Positions 15,623-25,465 of a stretch of 33,665 bases of DNA are shown one piece after another. Under the pieces are notes generated by a model. The model saw only the letters and a program-made list of their open reading frames with translations. It searched no databases and was not told the origin of the DNA. Numbering within the stretch: the first letter of the stretch is position 1; each line of letters opens with the position of its first letter. Both the position numbers and the translations under genes were made by a program. This stretch comes from Gemmatimonadota bacterium (GTDB lineage: Bacteria; JAAXHH01), in assembly GCA_026706345.1 (NCBI GenBank), contig JAPOYX010000129.1, positions 1-33,665 of the forward strand, in the 5' to 3' direction.

Positions 15623-15964
15623 GTGAAAGTAAGAGAAATCAAGCACGGGGACGTCACGGTGCTGGAATTGAGCGGCCGCATGGCCGAAGGACGGGATACC
15701 GACGCCCTGAGCGAACGCATCAACAGGCTGGCCGACAACGGTTCCAGGAAGATCATCTTCGATCTGAGCAAGGTATACTGGATCGACAGTTCAGGCCTGG
15801 GCCTACTCATTCGTGCGTATACCCGCATGCAGAAGGTCGGCGGCGATCTGAAACTCGCGCGCGTGAACCGCAGCGTCAGCAGCCTCCTGCAGATGACCAA
15901 GCTGACCACCGTGTTCGCCGTCCACGATTCACTGGAAGGCGCCATCGAAGCCTTCGGAACCTGA
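15623..15964 (+). CDS. STAS-domain anti-sigma factor antagonist (SpoIIAA/RsbV-like)
   Basis: This 113-residue single-domain protein has the STAS fold: VTVLELSGRM, then IIFDLSKVYWIDSSGLGLL and a C-terminal helix. In the conserved DSSG motif (D55-S56-S57-G58), S57 corresponds to the serine phosphorylated in SpoIIAA. Family members bind and release anti-sigma kinases according to phosphorylation. The GTG start at 15623 follows AGGCAGGA. The predicted kinase partner is not in this window, and the downstream methyltransferase starts 22 bases later. A second STAS gene of exactly the same length lies at 24375-24716. Confidence 0.9.
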   Translation: MKVREIKHGDVTVLELSGRMAEGRDTDALSERINRLADNGSRKIIFDLSKVYWIDSSGLGLLIRAYTRMQKVGGDLKLARVNRSVSSLLQMTKLTTVFAVHDSLEGAIEAFGT

Positions 15965-20059: not shown

Positions 20060-20108
20060 TGAACAACAGGTGGGCGGGCCTTCGCGGGCTCGCCCATTGC
20101 TTGTTCAG
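20060..20108. terminator. Large bidirectional hairpin between convergent receptor and transporter genes
   Basis: An inner 11-bp stem (20071-20096, TGGGCG pairing with CGCCCA, four-base loop) is enclosed by an outer 8-bp perfect stem CTGAACAA (20060-20067) and TTGTTCAG (20101-20108), with a 4x4 internal loop. The transporter's stop codon (20105-20107) lies inside the outer stem. T-tracts are weak in both directions, so termination on both strands is probable rather than sure. Confidence 0.6.
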
Positions 20109-21688
20109 GACCCGTGGTCCTGCTTCAGCCACCTGATGAAGGAAAGGGTCATCAGGACCAGCACGGCAATCAGGGGAATCGCCACGATCAGCGAGGCCGA
20201 CTGTACCGCCCTCAGGCTCTCCGTCCCTCCGACGAACATCAGCGACAGCGACACGAAGCTGAGCATGACCGCCCAGAAGCACCGGTGCCACCGCGCCGGC
20301 TCCCGCACTTCGGCCTGTTCCCGGGTCGCCACCGACGCCAGGATATAGGACGCCGAATCCAGCGTGGTGGCGGCGAAGATGATGGCGAGGGTCACGAAAA
20401 CCAGCAGGAGCGGCACGGCGAAGGGAAGTACCCGGTCTCCCACGGCGACGACTGTGGCGATGATCGCCTCCGGAGTCAGGTTGCGCGCGACCAGGCCGGT
20501 GAGGTCCTGCGATCCTTCCAGCTGCAGGAACAGGCTGGTGTTGCCGAGCACCGCGAAGAACATCCAGCAGCCCAGCGAGCCGCCGATGATCTCCGCGCCG
20601 ATCAGTTCACGGATCGTCCGGCCCCTGGAGATCCGCGCCACGAACAGCCCCATGAACGGTGCGAAGGCGATCCACCACGCCCAGTAGAAAATGGTCCACT
20701 GTTCCGAGAACGTCCCGGCGGACGCCGGACCGGACTCTCCCGCAGCCGCCGAGATCATGGATTCCGCCTTGGCGACGGGTTCCAGGTAGAAGCTCATCTT
20801 GATGAAGTTCTGCACCAGCAGCCCGATGCTGTTGGTGAACGTGTCGATGATGAACAGCGTGGGACCGGCGAGGAAGACGAAGGCCAGCAGCGCGATGGTG
20901 AGCCAGAGGTTGAACCGGCTCAGCATGCGGATGCCCCGTTGCAGCCCGGTATAGACGCTGACGCCGAAGATGACGCCCAGGGTGCTCACCACCGCCGCGT
21001 CCAGCCAGAACCCCCTTTCCACGCCCAGCAGTTCCGACAGGCCCGCCGAAATCATGGGCGTGCTCAGGCCGATGGACGTCCCGACCCCTCCGAGCAGGCC
21101 GAACATGAACATCATGTCGATGAACTTGCCCGGCAGGCTCCGCGCGGCCCGCTCGCCGATCACGCCTTCGCAGGCCGCCGACATGCGCAGGATGGGCCGC
21201 CCGCGGTTCCAGAAGAGGTAGGCCAGGGGCAGCGTCGGGATGCAGTAAATGGCCCAGGCGGTGAATCCCCAGTGAAACAGTCCGTAGGTCGCCGCCCACT
21301 CCGTGGCCGCCCTGGATCGCGGTTCGAGCCCGAAGGGCGGGTTCGTGTAGTAGTATACCCACTCGATGGTGCCCCAGTAGAGGACGCTGGCGCCGATGCC
21401 GGCGCAGAAGATCATGGCGATCCAGCTGACCAGGGAGAATTCGGGCCTGGCGTCGGGTCCGCCGAACCGCACGTTGCCGTATTTGCCGAGGGCGTAGTAG
21501 ACGAGGAGCGCGAAGGCGGCGATCGTGAACCAGAGATAGGCCCACCCCAGGACCCGGGTCAGCCAGCCGAAGGCCGCGCTCAACAGGGCTTCCCCCTCGA
21601 CGGGAAACAATACCAGGGGTACCGATACGCCTGTGATGAGCGGCAACGCGACCCAGAAGATCACCCGGTCGACTCTGGGTCCGTGCAT
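20105..21688 (-). CDS. BCCT family transporter (betaine/choline/carnitine type)
   Basis: This 527-residue protein has about 12 membrane segments and the BCCT signature WTIFYWAWWIAFAPFMG in the region of transmembrane helix 8. The third helix carries a glycine-rich turn (FCAGIGASVLYWG), where the BetP group reads GMGIG, so cation coupling may differ. The aromatic residues needed for quaternary-ammonium binding are plentiful there. It would import betaine, choline, carnitine or a related zwitterion such as DMSP. The ATG at 21688 has GGAGAGGAC upstream. It follows the CehA-type hydrolase by 97 bases on the same strand and ends within a shared hairpin. Confidence 0.95.
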   Translation of the reverse strand: MHGPRVDRVIFWVALPLITGVSVPLVLFPVEGEALLSAAFGWLTRVLGWAYLWFTIAAFALLVYYALGKYGNVRFGGPDARPEFSLVSWIAMIFCAGIGASVLYWGTIEWVYYYTNPPFGLEPRSRAATEWAATYGLFHWGFTAWAIYCIPTLPLAYLFWNRGRPILRMSAACEGVIGERAARSLPGKFIDMMFMFGLLGGVGTSIGLSTPMISAGLSELLGVERGFWLDAAVVSTLGVIFGVSVYTGLQRGIRMLSRFNLWLTIALLAFVFLAGPTLFIIDTFTNSIGLLVQNFIKMSFYLEPVAKAESMISAAAGESGPASAGTFSEQWTIFYWAWWIAFAPFMGLFVARISRGRTIRELIGAEIIGGSLGCWMFFAVLGNTSLFLQLEGSQDLTGLVARNLTPEAIIATVVAVGDRVLPFAVPLLLVFVTLAIIFAATTLDSASYILASVATREQAEVREPARWHRCFWAVMLSFVSLSLMFVGGTESLRAVQSASLIVAIPLIAVLVLMTLSFIRWLKQDHGS

Positions 21689-21730: not shown

Positions 21731-21801
21731 CGACGCTCAATACGGGATGTTCGTCCCGACGCTCAATGCGGGCCCGCGCCGACGCTCAATGCGGGATGTT
21801 C
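21731..21801 (-). repeat. Three degenerate copies of the 3' end of the CehA-type gene
   Basis: CGACGCTCAATRCGGG recurs at 21731, 21757 and 21780 (spacing 26 and 23). The copy at 21780-21801 is the actual gene end on the minus strand (Asn-Ile-Pro-His-stop). The copy at 21731-21752 matches it over 22 bases with one difference and again includes the TGA. Confidence 0.85.
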
Positions 21802-24290
21802 AATTCGTGCATGCGCCTGTGGATGGCTTCGCGCGCCTGCCGGTACGGCGCTTCGAGGAACGCTTCGTGATCGTCCCCTCCGTGATGGTGGGTGGTCGTA
21901 CCCGGCTTATGCTGCCAGCTGCGGCGCTTGATGTAGGACAGGCCGCCTTCGATCAAGCTCAGCATGTACTGGGCGTTTTCCAGGTCGAACAGCCAGTAGG
22001 GCCCGCCGCAGGCCACGTATACCGGCGAAGTGTGGGCCATGATGCCCCGGCGCCAGCCGTCGTGATGCGGTATGCTCGTGTAGTTCGGCCCGGCGCACCG
22101 CGCCGCCAGCCATGTATGGCCTTCGATCTTGAGGGAAGTCTTCAGCGACAGGCTGCGGGTGCCCTTGTGTTCCTCGGTCGAGGCGACCACCCGGCCCTGC
22201 TGCACGATCTCCAGCGTATGAATGGGGAGCGTCGAATCCGCCGACGCCTCGATCTCGACCGCCCCGCCGTTCCCGGGCAGATTCGCCGTGTCGCCGACCG
22301 GCTGGCCGTTCACCGTGAACCGGATGATGGGCCCCGCGCTCAGGAAGGTATTGCCGCCGCGCAGCGCCTTGCACCAGTTGTCGTAGGTAAAGGGCTCGTC
22401 CGGCGGGATGTAGGCATAGGTCCGGTAGATCCCCACCGGTACGTCGCTGGACATCTTGTCCGTCCCGCCCGCAAGGGGCAGCCTGTAGCCGCAGTTCAGG
22501 TACCGGTAGTACTCCAGATGGTTGTACTCGCTGTGGACCAGCATCTCCACGGCGTCGGCGCGGTCCGTGGCGATGAGCACCGCCGGTTCGCAGTTGGGAT
22601 TGGGGATATGGGGGATCACGACTGTTCCGCCCTGCGCATGGCACGCGTCGGCCCAGTACGACAGGGTGGTTTCCAGGTTGCCGCCCAGTTCGGCTTCACC
22701 CGGACCGTCCGAGCACCACGGCATGACCGGTTCCTTCAGGCCCAGGAGCGACAGGTGGCCCAGGATGTGCTGCCGGTTCTCCTGCGTGGCGTATACAATC
22801 GTATCGCCATCCGGCGCCACGTTCGCCGATCCGGTGAACTCCTCCGTGTTCGTGAAAAGGCCGCCCCATTGGGAGAGCAGAAGATTGACCACGTTCAGGT
22901 CTTCTCCGCGGGCCTCGAGCTGGGCGCCCTGGGTGGAGAGGAAATGCACGTGGGTGTCGCCGCTGAAGTACCGCTGAGCGTTCAGATCGGCCCACCGCTT
23001 CAGCCGAAGGGTCAGCTCGCGCTGCCCGGGTTCGATCGTGACGCGCTGGCGAATCGGCTCGTACTCGAAGCCGCGGGCCACGTCCACGTGCACCTCGCCC
23101 CGGGGCAGCCAGCCCTGGCACTTTCCGTCGATGTAGGCGTAGGACATCTGTCCCAGCCGGACATCGCCGCCCACGTCCACGTGCCACGTGTCCAGGTTCG
23201 AATTCACGTGGGCGTGGTGGCCGTGAGGCGCGTAGGGAACGCCCTTCGCCGAGCGGAAGTGGACGCGGCACGGGACGGGAAGGCCCGTATCGTCGTCCAG
23301 CACCGTGGTATGCACCCAGTTCCGGCCCGTATCGACGACCTCGAATCGCACCCGGGGCGTCTCCACGGCCTCGTTCGCTTCCAGCTCGCCCCAGTTGGCC
23401 GACCCGACCTCCTCGCCGTCCTGTTTCACGGTCACCGTGGCCGACGGCGTACCGGCCACGGCCACGTGGGCGGGACTCGAGCGTGTGTTGTCCGCCTGCC
23501 CCCAGCCCCGGTGGGAGTCGTTCATGAACGCTTCGTCCACCTGCCCGGGCAACGGATAGGCGTAGGTCGCGTAACCCCGGTCCACCTCCACGTCCAGGCT
23601 GAAGGGCTTCCCGGCGTCTTCCGGGTCCTTTAACTCGATCTGGACGTCCCGGGCGGCCCACCGGCAGATCGGATCCTCGTCGACATGCCCCAGGGTGATG
23701 GCGGCCACGACGAAAGGCGGGCCTTCCGGTATGATTTCGATGGATTGGATTTTACGGTCGGGGCGGGGATTGCGCCAGGCCCAGAGGTAGTACCCCAGAG
23801 GCCATCCCTGCTCGGCTTCCGTCTGCCGGCGGCCAGCGTCGTTCCAATCGCCGCCCGACCGGTCGTAGGTCGTCGGCTTCTGGTCGGGAACGCACAGGAA
23901 GGGATACTGTCCCCAGGGCAGCGGCATGTAGCCGATCTCGAACCGCTCGCGTATCGTCACCGATTCGTCCTGCCCGTCGTCCCAGGTGAAGCGGTACGCG
24001 GCCACGGGAATAGCGATCGGTCCGCCGGCCATGATCTCCGACCGGATCACCGCGTGGGCGAAGATCACGTTGACCGCGGAACTGCCGATTGGTATCTCGA
24101 CGGGATCGACCGGACAGCCCACCTGTGAACCGAAGCCGATGAAGCAGTCGGAATCCGCGGCTCCGTCGCCGATCTGAAACGGCAGGCCGTAAAAGGTCTG
24201 CGATCCGAGCGACGGGTCCGCTATGGAATCGTAGACTTGCCGATTCGTGTTGTAGCTGGAAGTGAGATCCAGCGGTTGATAGTCCGGCAT
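21786..24290 (-). CDS. CehA/McbA-type metallohydrolase with PHP-like domain
   Basis: This 834-residue protein has no signal peptide. Residues about 1-250 form a beta-rich domain with a D-rich opening (MPDYQPLDLTSSYN). A carboxypeptidase-regulatory-like region follows around 310-380. From about residue 440 there is a PHP-like metallohydrolase core: FSGDTHVHF with H447 and H449 as probable metal ligands, VVIPHIPNPNCEP, and the later GGTDKMSS, resembling CehA/McbA (1-naphthyl-N-methylcarbamate hydrolase) relatives. It may hydrolyse esters, phosphoesters or carbamates. The ATG at 24290 has GCGAGG 5-6 bases upstream. It is followed by a BCCT transporter gene at 97 bases, which may supply or export its substrate. 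Function not established. Confidence 0.75.
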   Translation of the reverse strand: MPDYQPLDLTSSYNTNRQVYDSIADPSLGSQTFYGLPFQIGDGAADSDCFIGFGSQVGCPVDPVEIPIGSSAVNVIFAHAVIRSEIMAGGPIAIPVAAYRFTWDDGQDESVTIRERFEIGYMPLPWGQYPFLCVPDQKPTTYDRSGGDWNDAGRRQTEAEQGWPLGYYLWAWRNPRPDRKIQSIEIIPEGPPFVVAAITLGHVDEDPICRWAARDVQIELKDPEDAGKPFSLDVEVDRGYATYAYPLPGQVDEAFMNDSHRGWGQADNTRSSPAHVAVAGTPSATVTVKQDGEEVGSANWGELEANEAVETPRVRFEVVDTGRNWVHTTVLDDDTGLPVPCRVHFRSAKGVPYAPHGHHAHVNSNLDTWHVDVGGDVRLGQMSYAYIDGKCQGWLPRGEVHVDVARGFEYEPIRQRVTIEPGQRELTLRLKRWADLNAQRYFSGDTHVHFLSTQGAQLEARGEDLNVVNLLLSQWGGLFTNTEEFTGSANVAPDGDTIVYATQENRQHILGHLSLLGLKEPVMPWCSDGPGEAELGGNLETTLSYWADACHAQGGTVVIPHIPNPNCEPAVLIATDRADAVEMLVHSEYNHLEYYRYLNCGYRLPLAGGTDKMSSDVPVGIYRTYAYIPPDEPFTYDNWCKALRGGNTFLSAGPIIRFTVNGQPVGDTANLPGNGGAVEIEASADSTLPIHTLEIVQQGRVVASTEEHKGTRSLSLKTSLKIEGHTWLAARCAGPNYTSIPHHDGWRRGIMAHTSPVYVACGGPYWLFDLENAQYMLSLIEGGLSYIKRRSWQHKPGTTTHHHGGDDHEAFLEAPYRQAREAIHRRMHELNIPH

Positions 24291-24325: not shown

Positions 24326-24389
24326 CGTCAGGCGTGCAAGGTTACAGTACGTCTTCGTGCAGGCTACCGAAACGTCAGGCGTGCAGGCT
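24326..24389 (-). repeat. Three degenerate copies of the 3' end of the second STAS gene
   Basis: CGTCAGGCGTGCA is at 24326 and again at 24373; between them 24350 starts a weaker copy (CGTCTTCGTGCAGGCT). Spacing is 24 and 23 bases. The copy at 24373 contains the actual stop codon of the STAS gene on the minus strand. Confidence 0.75.
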
Positions 24390-24716
24390 TTCCACAGCGG
24401 CATCTACATCATCGTAGGTCTTGAAGACGGTGTGAAGCCTGGTAATCCGGAACAGATGATCCAGGCGGTCGTTCACGCCCGTAAGCGCCATCTCTCCTGA
24501 TCTGGATCTGATCTTCTTCATGGCGGCGATCAGCGAACCCAGTCCCGAACTGTTCATGATGGGCACGCCAGCCAGATCGGTAACGAAGCGCGTGCAGCCG
24601 CGGGTCAGGGCCTCGTCGATCATGCGGTCCAGTTCGATGCTGTCGTCCTCTTCCCACAACCTGCCCTCGATACGCAGTACGGCGATCTCGTTTTCCAGTG
24701 AAACGTCAATATTCAT
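24375..24716 (-). CDS. Second STAS-domain protein (anti-sigma antagonist type)
   Basis: This 113-residue protein (start ATG 24716, MNIDVSLENEIAVLRIEG) has the STAS fold and the phospho-loop IMNSSGLGSL. S57 aligns with the regulatory serine of SpoIIAA; the preceding Asp of the usual DSSG is Asn (N55). GAGGTGGG just before the ATG supports this start rather than one 48 bases upstream. Length and loop position are identical to the STAS protein at 15623-15964, though the sequences differ. It sits between a selenoprotein gene (95 bases upstream) and a hydrolase gene (84 bases downstream) on the same strand. No kinase or phosphatase partner is adjacent, so its target sigma system is unknown. Confidence 0.88.
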   Translation of the reverse strand: MNIDVSLENEIAVLRIEGRLWEEDDSIELDRMIDEALTRGCTRFVTDLAGVPIMNSSGLGSLIAAMKKIRSRSGEMALTGVNDRLDHLFRITRLHTVFKTYDDVDAAVESLHA

Positions 24717-24811
24717 ACCCACCTCTATGCTCCGGCCACACCGCCGCGGCAGCACGCGGCCCACACCGGAAGGACTGACTCTCGGATCCAGTTCGGGTGT
24801 CTAGCGCTGTT

Positions 24812-25051
24812 TCAGCCGGCGATCAGCGCCTCGATGGCGCCCTTGATCTCCTCGTACTCGGGAAACCGGTCCGTTTCCAGCTTGGAAAAGACCTGCTCGT
24901 CATCGACAGTTACCTCGAACTTGCCCCCACCGGAGGGCACGAGCTGCAACTGCCCTATGTCGTGTTTGTAGTACTCCAGCAGCTTCACCGCCAGCCCGGC
25001 GGCGTCTTTTTCATAGCTTCAGTCGGCGCAGTAGACGATACGTACAATCAC
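24812..25051 (-). CDS. SelW-like (Rdx family) selenoprotein, UGA read as selenocysteine
   Basis: A GTG at 25051 is preceded by a perfect Shine-Dalgarno, AAGGAGG with a 5-base gap. Decoding gives [10 protein letters not shown], then an in-frame TGA (25019-25021), then [17 protein letters not shown] and later [19 protein letters not shown], ending at a second TGA (24812-24814). Total is 79 residues with Sec at position 11. The first 20 residues and the FEVTVD..VFSK segment are characteristic of the SelW/SelT/SelH (Rdx) thioredoxin-like family, whose redox motif is CxxU or CxxC; here it is C8-A-D-U11. If TGA were a true stop, the remaining 68 codons of conserved protein would be unexplained. Rdx proteins are small cytosolic thiol-selenol redox proteins. 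Sec insertion needs SelA, SelB, SelD and tRNA-Sec encoded elsewhere. A sequencing error replacing a Cys codon is the alternative. Confidence 0.88.
24986..25018 (-). promoter_or_regulatory. SECIS-like hairpin downstream of the Sec UGA
   Basis: On the minus strand, 14 bases after the UGA, seven bases at 25004-24998 (CGCCGCC) pair with seven at 24992-24986 (GGCGGTG), one G-U pair, enclosing a five-base loop that begins with G (24997-24993, GGGCT). Bacterial SECIS elements lie within the coding region close behind the UGA and have G among the first loop bases for SelB. The apical loop begins 22 bases after the UGA, within the usual range. Confidence 0.65.
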
Positions 25052-25102
25052 CGTTTCCTCCTTGAACGAATGAGCCGCCTTCAAGTCGTCATTACGTTAC
25101 TA

Positions 25103-25270: not shown

Positions 25271-25465
25271 ATGCTCGGAAGTTTCGGCACGACAGAACTG
25301 ATTATCATTCTCGTGATCGTCATGGTTCTCTTCGGTGCGAAGAAGCTCCCTGAGTTGGCTAAGGGCCTGGGCCAGGGAATCAACGAGTTCAAGAAAGCAC
25401 AGAAGAAAGAACCTGCCGAAGAGAATCAGAATACCTCGGGTACGTCCGCCTCCAAGGACGCCTGA
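25271..25465 (+). CDS. tatA: TatA/E-family twin-arginine translocase subunit
   Basis: This 64-residue protein has the TatA layout: a short N-terminal membrane helix ([16 protein letters not shown], residues 7-22), the hinge [16 protein letters not shown], an amphipathic helix to about residue 45 and a polar, charged tail. TatA oligomers form the pore for folded proteins with twin-arginine signals. The ATG follows an unusually strong Shine-Dalgarno (GAGGAGGTGAT). The frame is open upstream across the antisense of the selenoprotein gene, but that part is not coding. No tatB or tatC is adjacent, so it is a solitary tatA. Confidence 0.93.

Follow-up and report, generated by a model that had tools for sequence, protein, structure and literature searches.

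Does the TGA at codon 11 of a short reading frame end a truncated gene, or is it decoded as selenocysteine (Sec)? The window, by which we mean the whole 33,665-nucleotide stretch of DNA analysed here, comes from a MAG, and a sequence-only reading had placed a hidden SelW-like selenoprotein gene at positions 24812-25051. That location is right; the strand, which the earlier reading had not given, is the minus strand. Translated from 25051 to 24812 with TGA kept as a residue, the frame yields a 79-residue protein of the Rdx family with a GTG start, a TGA at codon 11 (25019-25021, minus strand) and a terminal TGA at codon 80, and the forward-strand reading of the same positions was rejected because its translation yields no Rdx protein. 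The codon for Cys8, the predicted resolving cysteine of the CxxU motif, lies at 25028-25030 on the minus strand. The perfect Shine-Dalgarno sequence and GTG start reported earlier are both present, the former as AAGGAGG at 25057-25063 (minus strand) and kept in relatives, and AAGGAGGA is retained in nearly all genus members. Standard gene calling would stop at codon 10, so that an ordinary gene caller misses the gene, as had been foreseen, and automated annotation drops or shortens UGA-containing genes of this kind.

Past the TGA the frame continues as an Rdx protein. The Pfam Rdx profile (PF10262) matches residues 2-73/74 with E=1.7e-21 and runs across the TGA, TIGR02174 scores 66.9 bits against a cut-off of 34.2 and likewise extends beyond the UGA, and the Rdx/SelWTH domain defined by the two profiles covers the whole length of the protein. 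An AlphaFold model built from a 15-sequence alignment (pLDDT 93.7) displays a strand at residues 2-8, a helix at 14-27, three further strands and a last helix, with the CxxU pair placed where the first strand gives way to the first helix. Foldseek aligned this predicted model to 2OBK and 2FA8 with a TM score of 0.92, bearing out a thioredoxin-like Rdx fold. In the same alignment Cys8 is invariant and position 11 is always Sec or Cys. Profiles, alignment and model agree with the Rdx-type first strand and C8-x-x-Sec11 motif that had been proposed from the sequence.

We additionally searched 115 genomes for counterparts and found a SelW/T/H gene in 30, of which 27 carry one TGA and three carry none. 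The TGA stands at the same codon in 12 of 12 genus genomes, in G012 from the neighbouring genus and in 14 genomes of 14 other families, amounting to 15 genera beyond that of the window. The three TGA-less genes (G064, G086 and G113), which are distant homologues from other families, have Cys at exactly the UGA column, the replacement that the sequence-only reading had suggested looking for. Genus-wide pN/pS is 0.05 before the UGA and 0.17 after it, indicating that the downstream part is translated and confirming the claim of conserved sequence beyond the UGA. A decayed Rdx pseudogene, with the UGA acting as a genuine stop, would fit the early end of standard gene calling. It is refuted by the purifying selection acting downstream of a universally kept TGA, the frame shows no other damage, and the Shine-Dalgarno sequence and start are conserved; on the basis of the TGA conservation and the downstream selection we rejected this explanation as extremely improbable. 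Since the window is derived from a MAG, the TGA might also reflect a sequencing or assembly error, a TGC or TGT misread as TGA. Independent MAGs from different assemblies nevertheless share the same TGA amid diverged flanking codons, a recurrence that stands in for a read-level check and leaves such an error, which we likewise rejected, with a vanishingly small probability. Among named sequence records, those nearest to the gene belong to MAGs labelled Candidatus Latescibacterota.

The gene had been taken to imply that its host makes selenoproteins, and selA, selB, selC and selD were all found in the window's MAG (4.49 Mb, 97.9% complete, 4.6% contamination), upholding this claim with the qualification that SelA is atypical. 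selB lies on contig 242 (334 bits, over cut-off), directly followed by a tRNA-Sec gene with a TCA anticodon (L072), an arrangement repeated in genome G001 (L098), and selA is on contig 23 (489 bits, over cut-off). The selD domain (257 bits, over cut-off) is of the Cys type and is fused to an N-terminal pyridine-nucleotide oxidoreductase (L073, 1-2223; contig 171); its motif AGCGAK retains the Cys and the Lys that we take to be the catalytic positions of E. coli SelD. The NCBIfam model TIGR04369, 'fusion_not_SelD', also scores on the fusion, but below its cut-off; this model classes some oxidoreductase-SelD fusions as 'not SelD'. Outside the family, selB was over cut-off in 13 of 14 genomes with a UGA-containing SelW gene versus 31 of the remaining 87 (Fisher p=6e-5). 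The exception, G076 (L046), has both the UGA-containing gene and a tRNA-Sec of 77.8 bits and gave no selB match at E<=1e-50, so its SelB is possibly divergent or missing. In G010, which is 87% complete, no selB or tRNA-Sec that could be ascribed to Sec scored convincingly over cut-off.

This machinery also bears on whether the UGA might be read as Cys or Trp, through a code change or near-cognate read-through, a reading with which the Cys of the non-Sec homologues would be compatible. Against it, a specific tRNA-Sec and SelB are encoded in the genome, and the UGAs of other genes also fall at redox positions; a global reassignment was rejected because TGA is the ordinary stop for most window genes, selW included. 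We consider insertion of an ordinary amino acid very unlikely. The other genes in question comprise two AhpD-like genes (TIGR01926) with an in-frame UGA in CxxU, reading CEYU and CVYU (L079 and L080; contigs 235 and 13), each with its UGA seen in 11 of 12 genus genomes, and a Prx/SelL-like gene with the motif GYWUPLC (L077; contig 109), whose UGA occurs in 12 of 12. In a PrxQ-like gene, Prx217 (L078; contig 217), the UGA falls on the peroxidatic position (TPGU). Genus members yielded no counterpart with UGA; since this MAG is the only one in which the UGA form was observed, and its contig measures 3.3 kb in an assembly with 4.6% contamination, the gene was set aside as a fifth UGA gene and may be a contaminant. 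FdhA was rejected as a further selenoprotein, as there are no stops inside its molybdopterin-domain matches. This Latescibacterota lineage thus has the Sec trait; selW, the two AhpD-like genes and the Prx-like gene make a minimum of four UGA redox genes conserved across the genus. A genome study of sponge-symbiont Latescibacterota does not mention selenium (PMC12993501).

The selenocysteine synthase of this genome was a surprising by-product of the analysis, and of higher interest than the selW gene itself. Sec-using organisms are said to keep the N-terminal tRNA-binding domain of SelA (PMC4607533), and the only SelA over cut-off, SelA1 (L075, 4243-5511; contig 23), is an apparent exception to that rule. 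It keeps the PLP-lysine motif SGDKLLGGPQ, and its alignment to E. coli SelA begins only at residue 77, leaving it without the N-terminal domain; upstream lies an amidase gene, and no such domain was found there in another frame. A second protein, SelA2 (L074, 3401-4804; contig 59), aligns to E. coli SelA from residue 5 and reads AGGGLIGGPP, with Gly replacing the catalytic lysine. Its N-terminal part alone gave a weak match (E=0.28), though the best in the PDB. SelA2 thus retains a candidate N-terminal domain and has lost the catalytic lysine. SelA2 and a HypE/SelD-like neighbour are kept in G001, an N-terminally short SelA1 is also present in G001 and G006, and for both proteins selection is purifying, with dN/dS of about 0.17 and 0.37. 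In a lineage that has UGA genes the two proteins seem to complement each other, and a Sec synthase split between SelA1 and SelA2 is a tentative reading to which we give somewhat less than an even chance; alternatively, SelA1 acts alone, or a third SelA is absent from the assemblies. If the split enzyme were real, several selenoproteins, the SelW of the window among them, would rely on a two-part enzyme.

As a SECIS-like element, the sequence-only reading had described a 7-bp stem with a G-first loop at the right distance. All three features are present in a hairpin at 24986-25004 (minus strand), in which the stem CGCCGCC/GGCGGUG (25004-24998 paired with 24992-24986) encloses the loop GGGCU (24997-24993), the hairpin starting 14 nt and the loop 21-22 nt after the UGA. 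The bSECIS model allows a loop of 3-9 nt, a stem of 4-16 bp and a spacing of 16-37 nt, with a G within the first two loop positions and an MFE of at most -7.5 (PMC13188914), and the window hairpin lies within every one of these limits (5-nt loop, 7 bp, 21-nt spacing, -14.0 kcal/mol). That energy, computed for the 42-nt piece at 24980-25021 whose folding had been suggested as a check, was matched by 6 of 200 shuffles, and windows of 52 and 65 nt were no more stable than shuffles. A G-loop hairpin at SECIS distance places the site in the top 2.4% relative to 2649 other TGA triplets of the same genome, and with one sequence per genus the hairpin score is distinguished from those genomic TGAs at p=5e-9. 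In most homologues a hairpin recurs whose loop carries a G close to its start and lies roughly 21-22 nt beyond the UGA, and in-register pairing across homologues reaches 75% of cells versus 26-52% in slid controls; covariation was not above column shuffles. Because the hairpin overlaps codons of a conserved peptide, its conservation across families is partly protein-driven. Within the genus, codons 16-22 are nearly without synonymous change. This invariance is unusual only at roughly 0.6% if independence is assumed, and at 10% when set against comparable windows in neighbouring genes, with 7-36% of 7-codon amino-acid-invariant windows, depending on the gene, being equally quiet; this quietness may be regarded as supportive of a SECIS and not as proof. 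Taken by themselves, folding energy and covariation give weak evidence and did not establish the SECIS role. The hairpin is a plausible candidate SECIS.

Directly downstream of selW on the minus strand is a STAS/anti-sigma factor antagonist gene (24375-24764; Pfam STAS E=3.6e-15, TIGR00377), followed by genes for a CehA/McbA family metallohydrolase (21786-24290; NF038032, 150 bits versus a cut-off of 80) and a BCCT family betaine/carnitine/choline-type transporter (20105-21688; Pfam BCCT E=1.9e-148). This order recurs in every genus member with a contig long enough to show it, and on the other side a divergent tatA-like gene (25271-25465, plus strand; TatA_B_E E=2.4e-20, TIGR01411), followed by an ECF sigma factor, bounds the cluster throughout the genus. 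A second STAS-type anti-sigma antagonist-like gene, with the motif DSSGLG, lies at 15623-15964 of the window. The grouping had been thought undescribed, and we found no description of a selW-STAS-CehA/McbA hydrolase-BCCT cluster in the open literature. The selenoprotein could be real and its neighbours an accident of the transcription unit without a functional link, to which we assign even odds: the functions are unrelated, SelW as a small protein might assist redox reactions in general, and genome G012 of the next genus keeps selW, STAS and hydrolase with no BCCT detected within a 14-kb stretch. Set against this are the constant order wherever genus contigs reach and its partial retention in another genus. 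A functional link of SelW to the STAS, hydrolase and transporter genes is a conjecture.

Each check suggested by the sequence-only reading gave a favourable outcome. Taken together, our results indicate that the locus is almost certainly a genuine SelW-like selenoprotein gene whose UGA is very probably decoded as Sec. In the mechanism we propose, ribosomes would start at the GTG, and at codon 11 the hairpin 21-22 nt beyond the UGA would recruit SelB loaded with Sec-tRNA-Sec, which decodes that UGA as Sec, with the second UGA, at codon 80, terminating the protein. The product would be a one-domain thioredoxin-like (Rdx) protein in which Cys8-x-x-Sec11 ends the first strand and the Cys8-Sec11 pair is placed where a selenenylsulfide could form; SelW is therefore most likely a small thiol/selenol oxidoreductase.

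Among known systems, the closest are the bacterial SelW-like or SELENOW-like selenoproteins (PF10262, TIGR02174), a listed prokaryotic family (PMC1794560, PMC2398784, PMC13188914) that, as the sequence-only reading had stated, already includes CxxU members. The window protein resembles them in its domain, in the position of CxxU and in a SECIS-like element directly after the UGA, and it differs in its STAS, hydrolase and BCCT neighbourhood; its host lineage is not named in the selenoprotein reviews consulted. The best NCBIfam match, NF041051 (SelT/SelW/SelH (seleno)protein, Campylobacter type), spans nearly the whole protein at 77.7 bits, just under the curated cut-off of 88, and the protein is accordingly not an equivalog member. 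With the bacterial Rdx structures 2OBK, 2FA8, 2OKA, 3DEX and 2P0G, which we take to carry Cys instead of Sec, it shares the fold (TM about 0.9) and 28-40% identity. Mammalian SELENOW (2NPB, mouse) has the same Rdx fold (TM 0.73), but its sequence similarity to the window protein is remote (E=0.09), and the eukaryotic SECIS sits in the 3' UTR. The SelW-like CxxU family is thus already established, and the window gene adds to it a member from an undescribed lineage.
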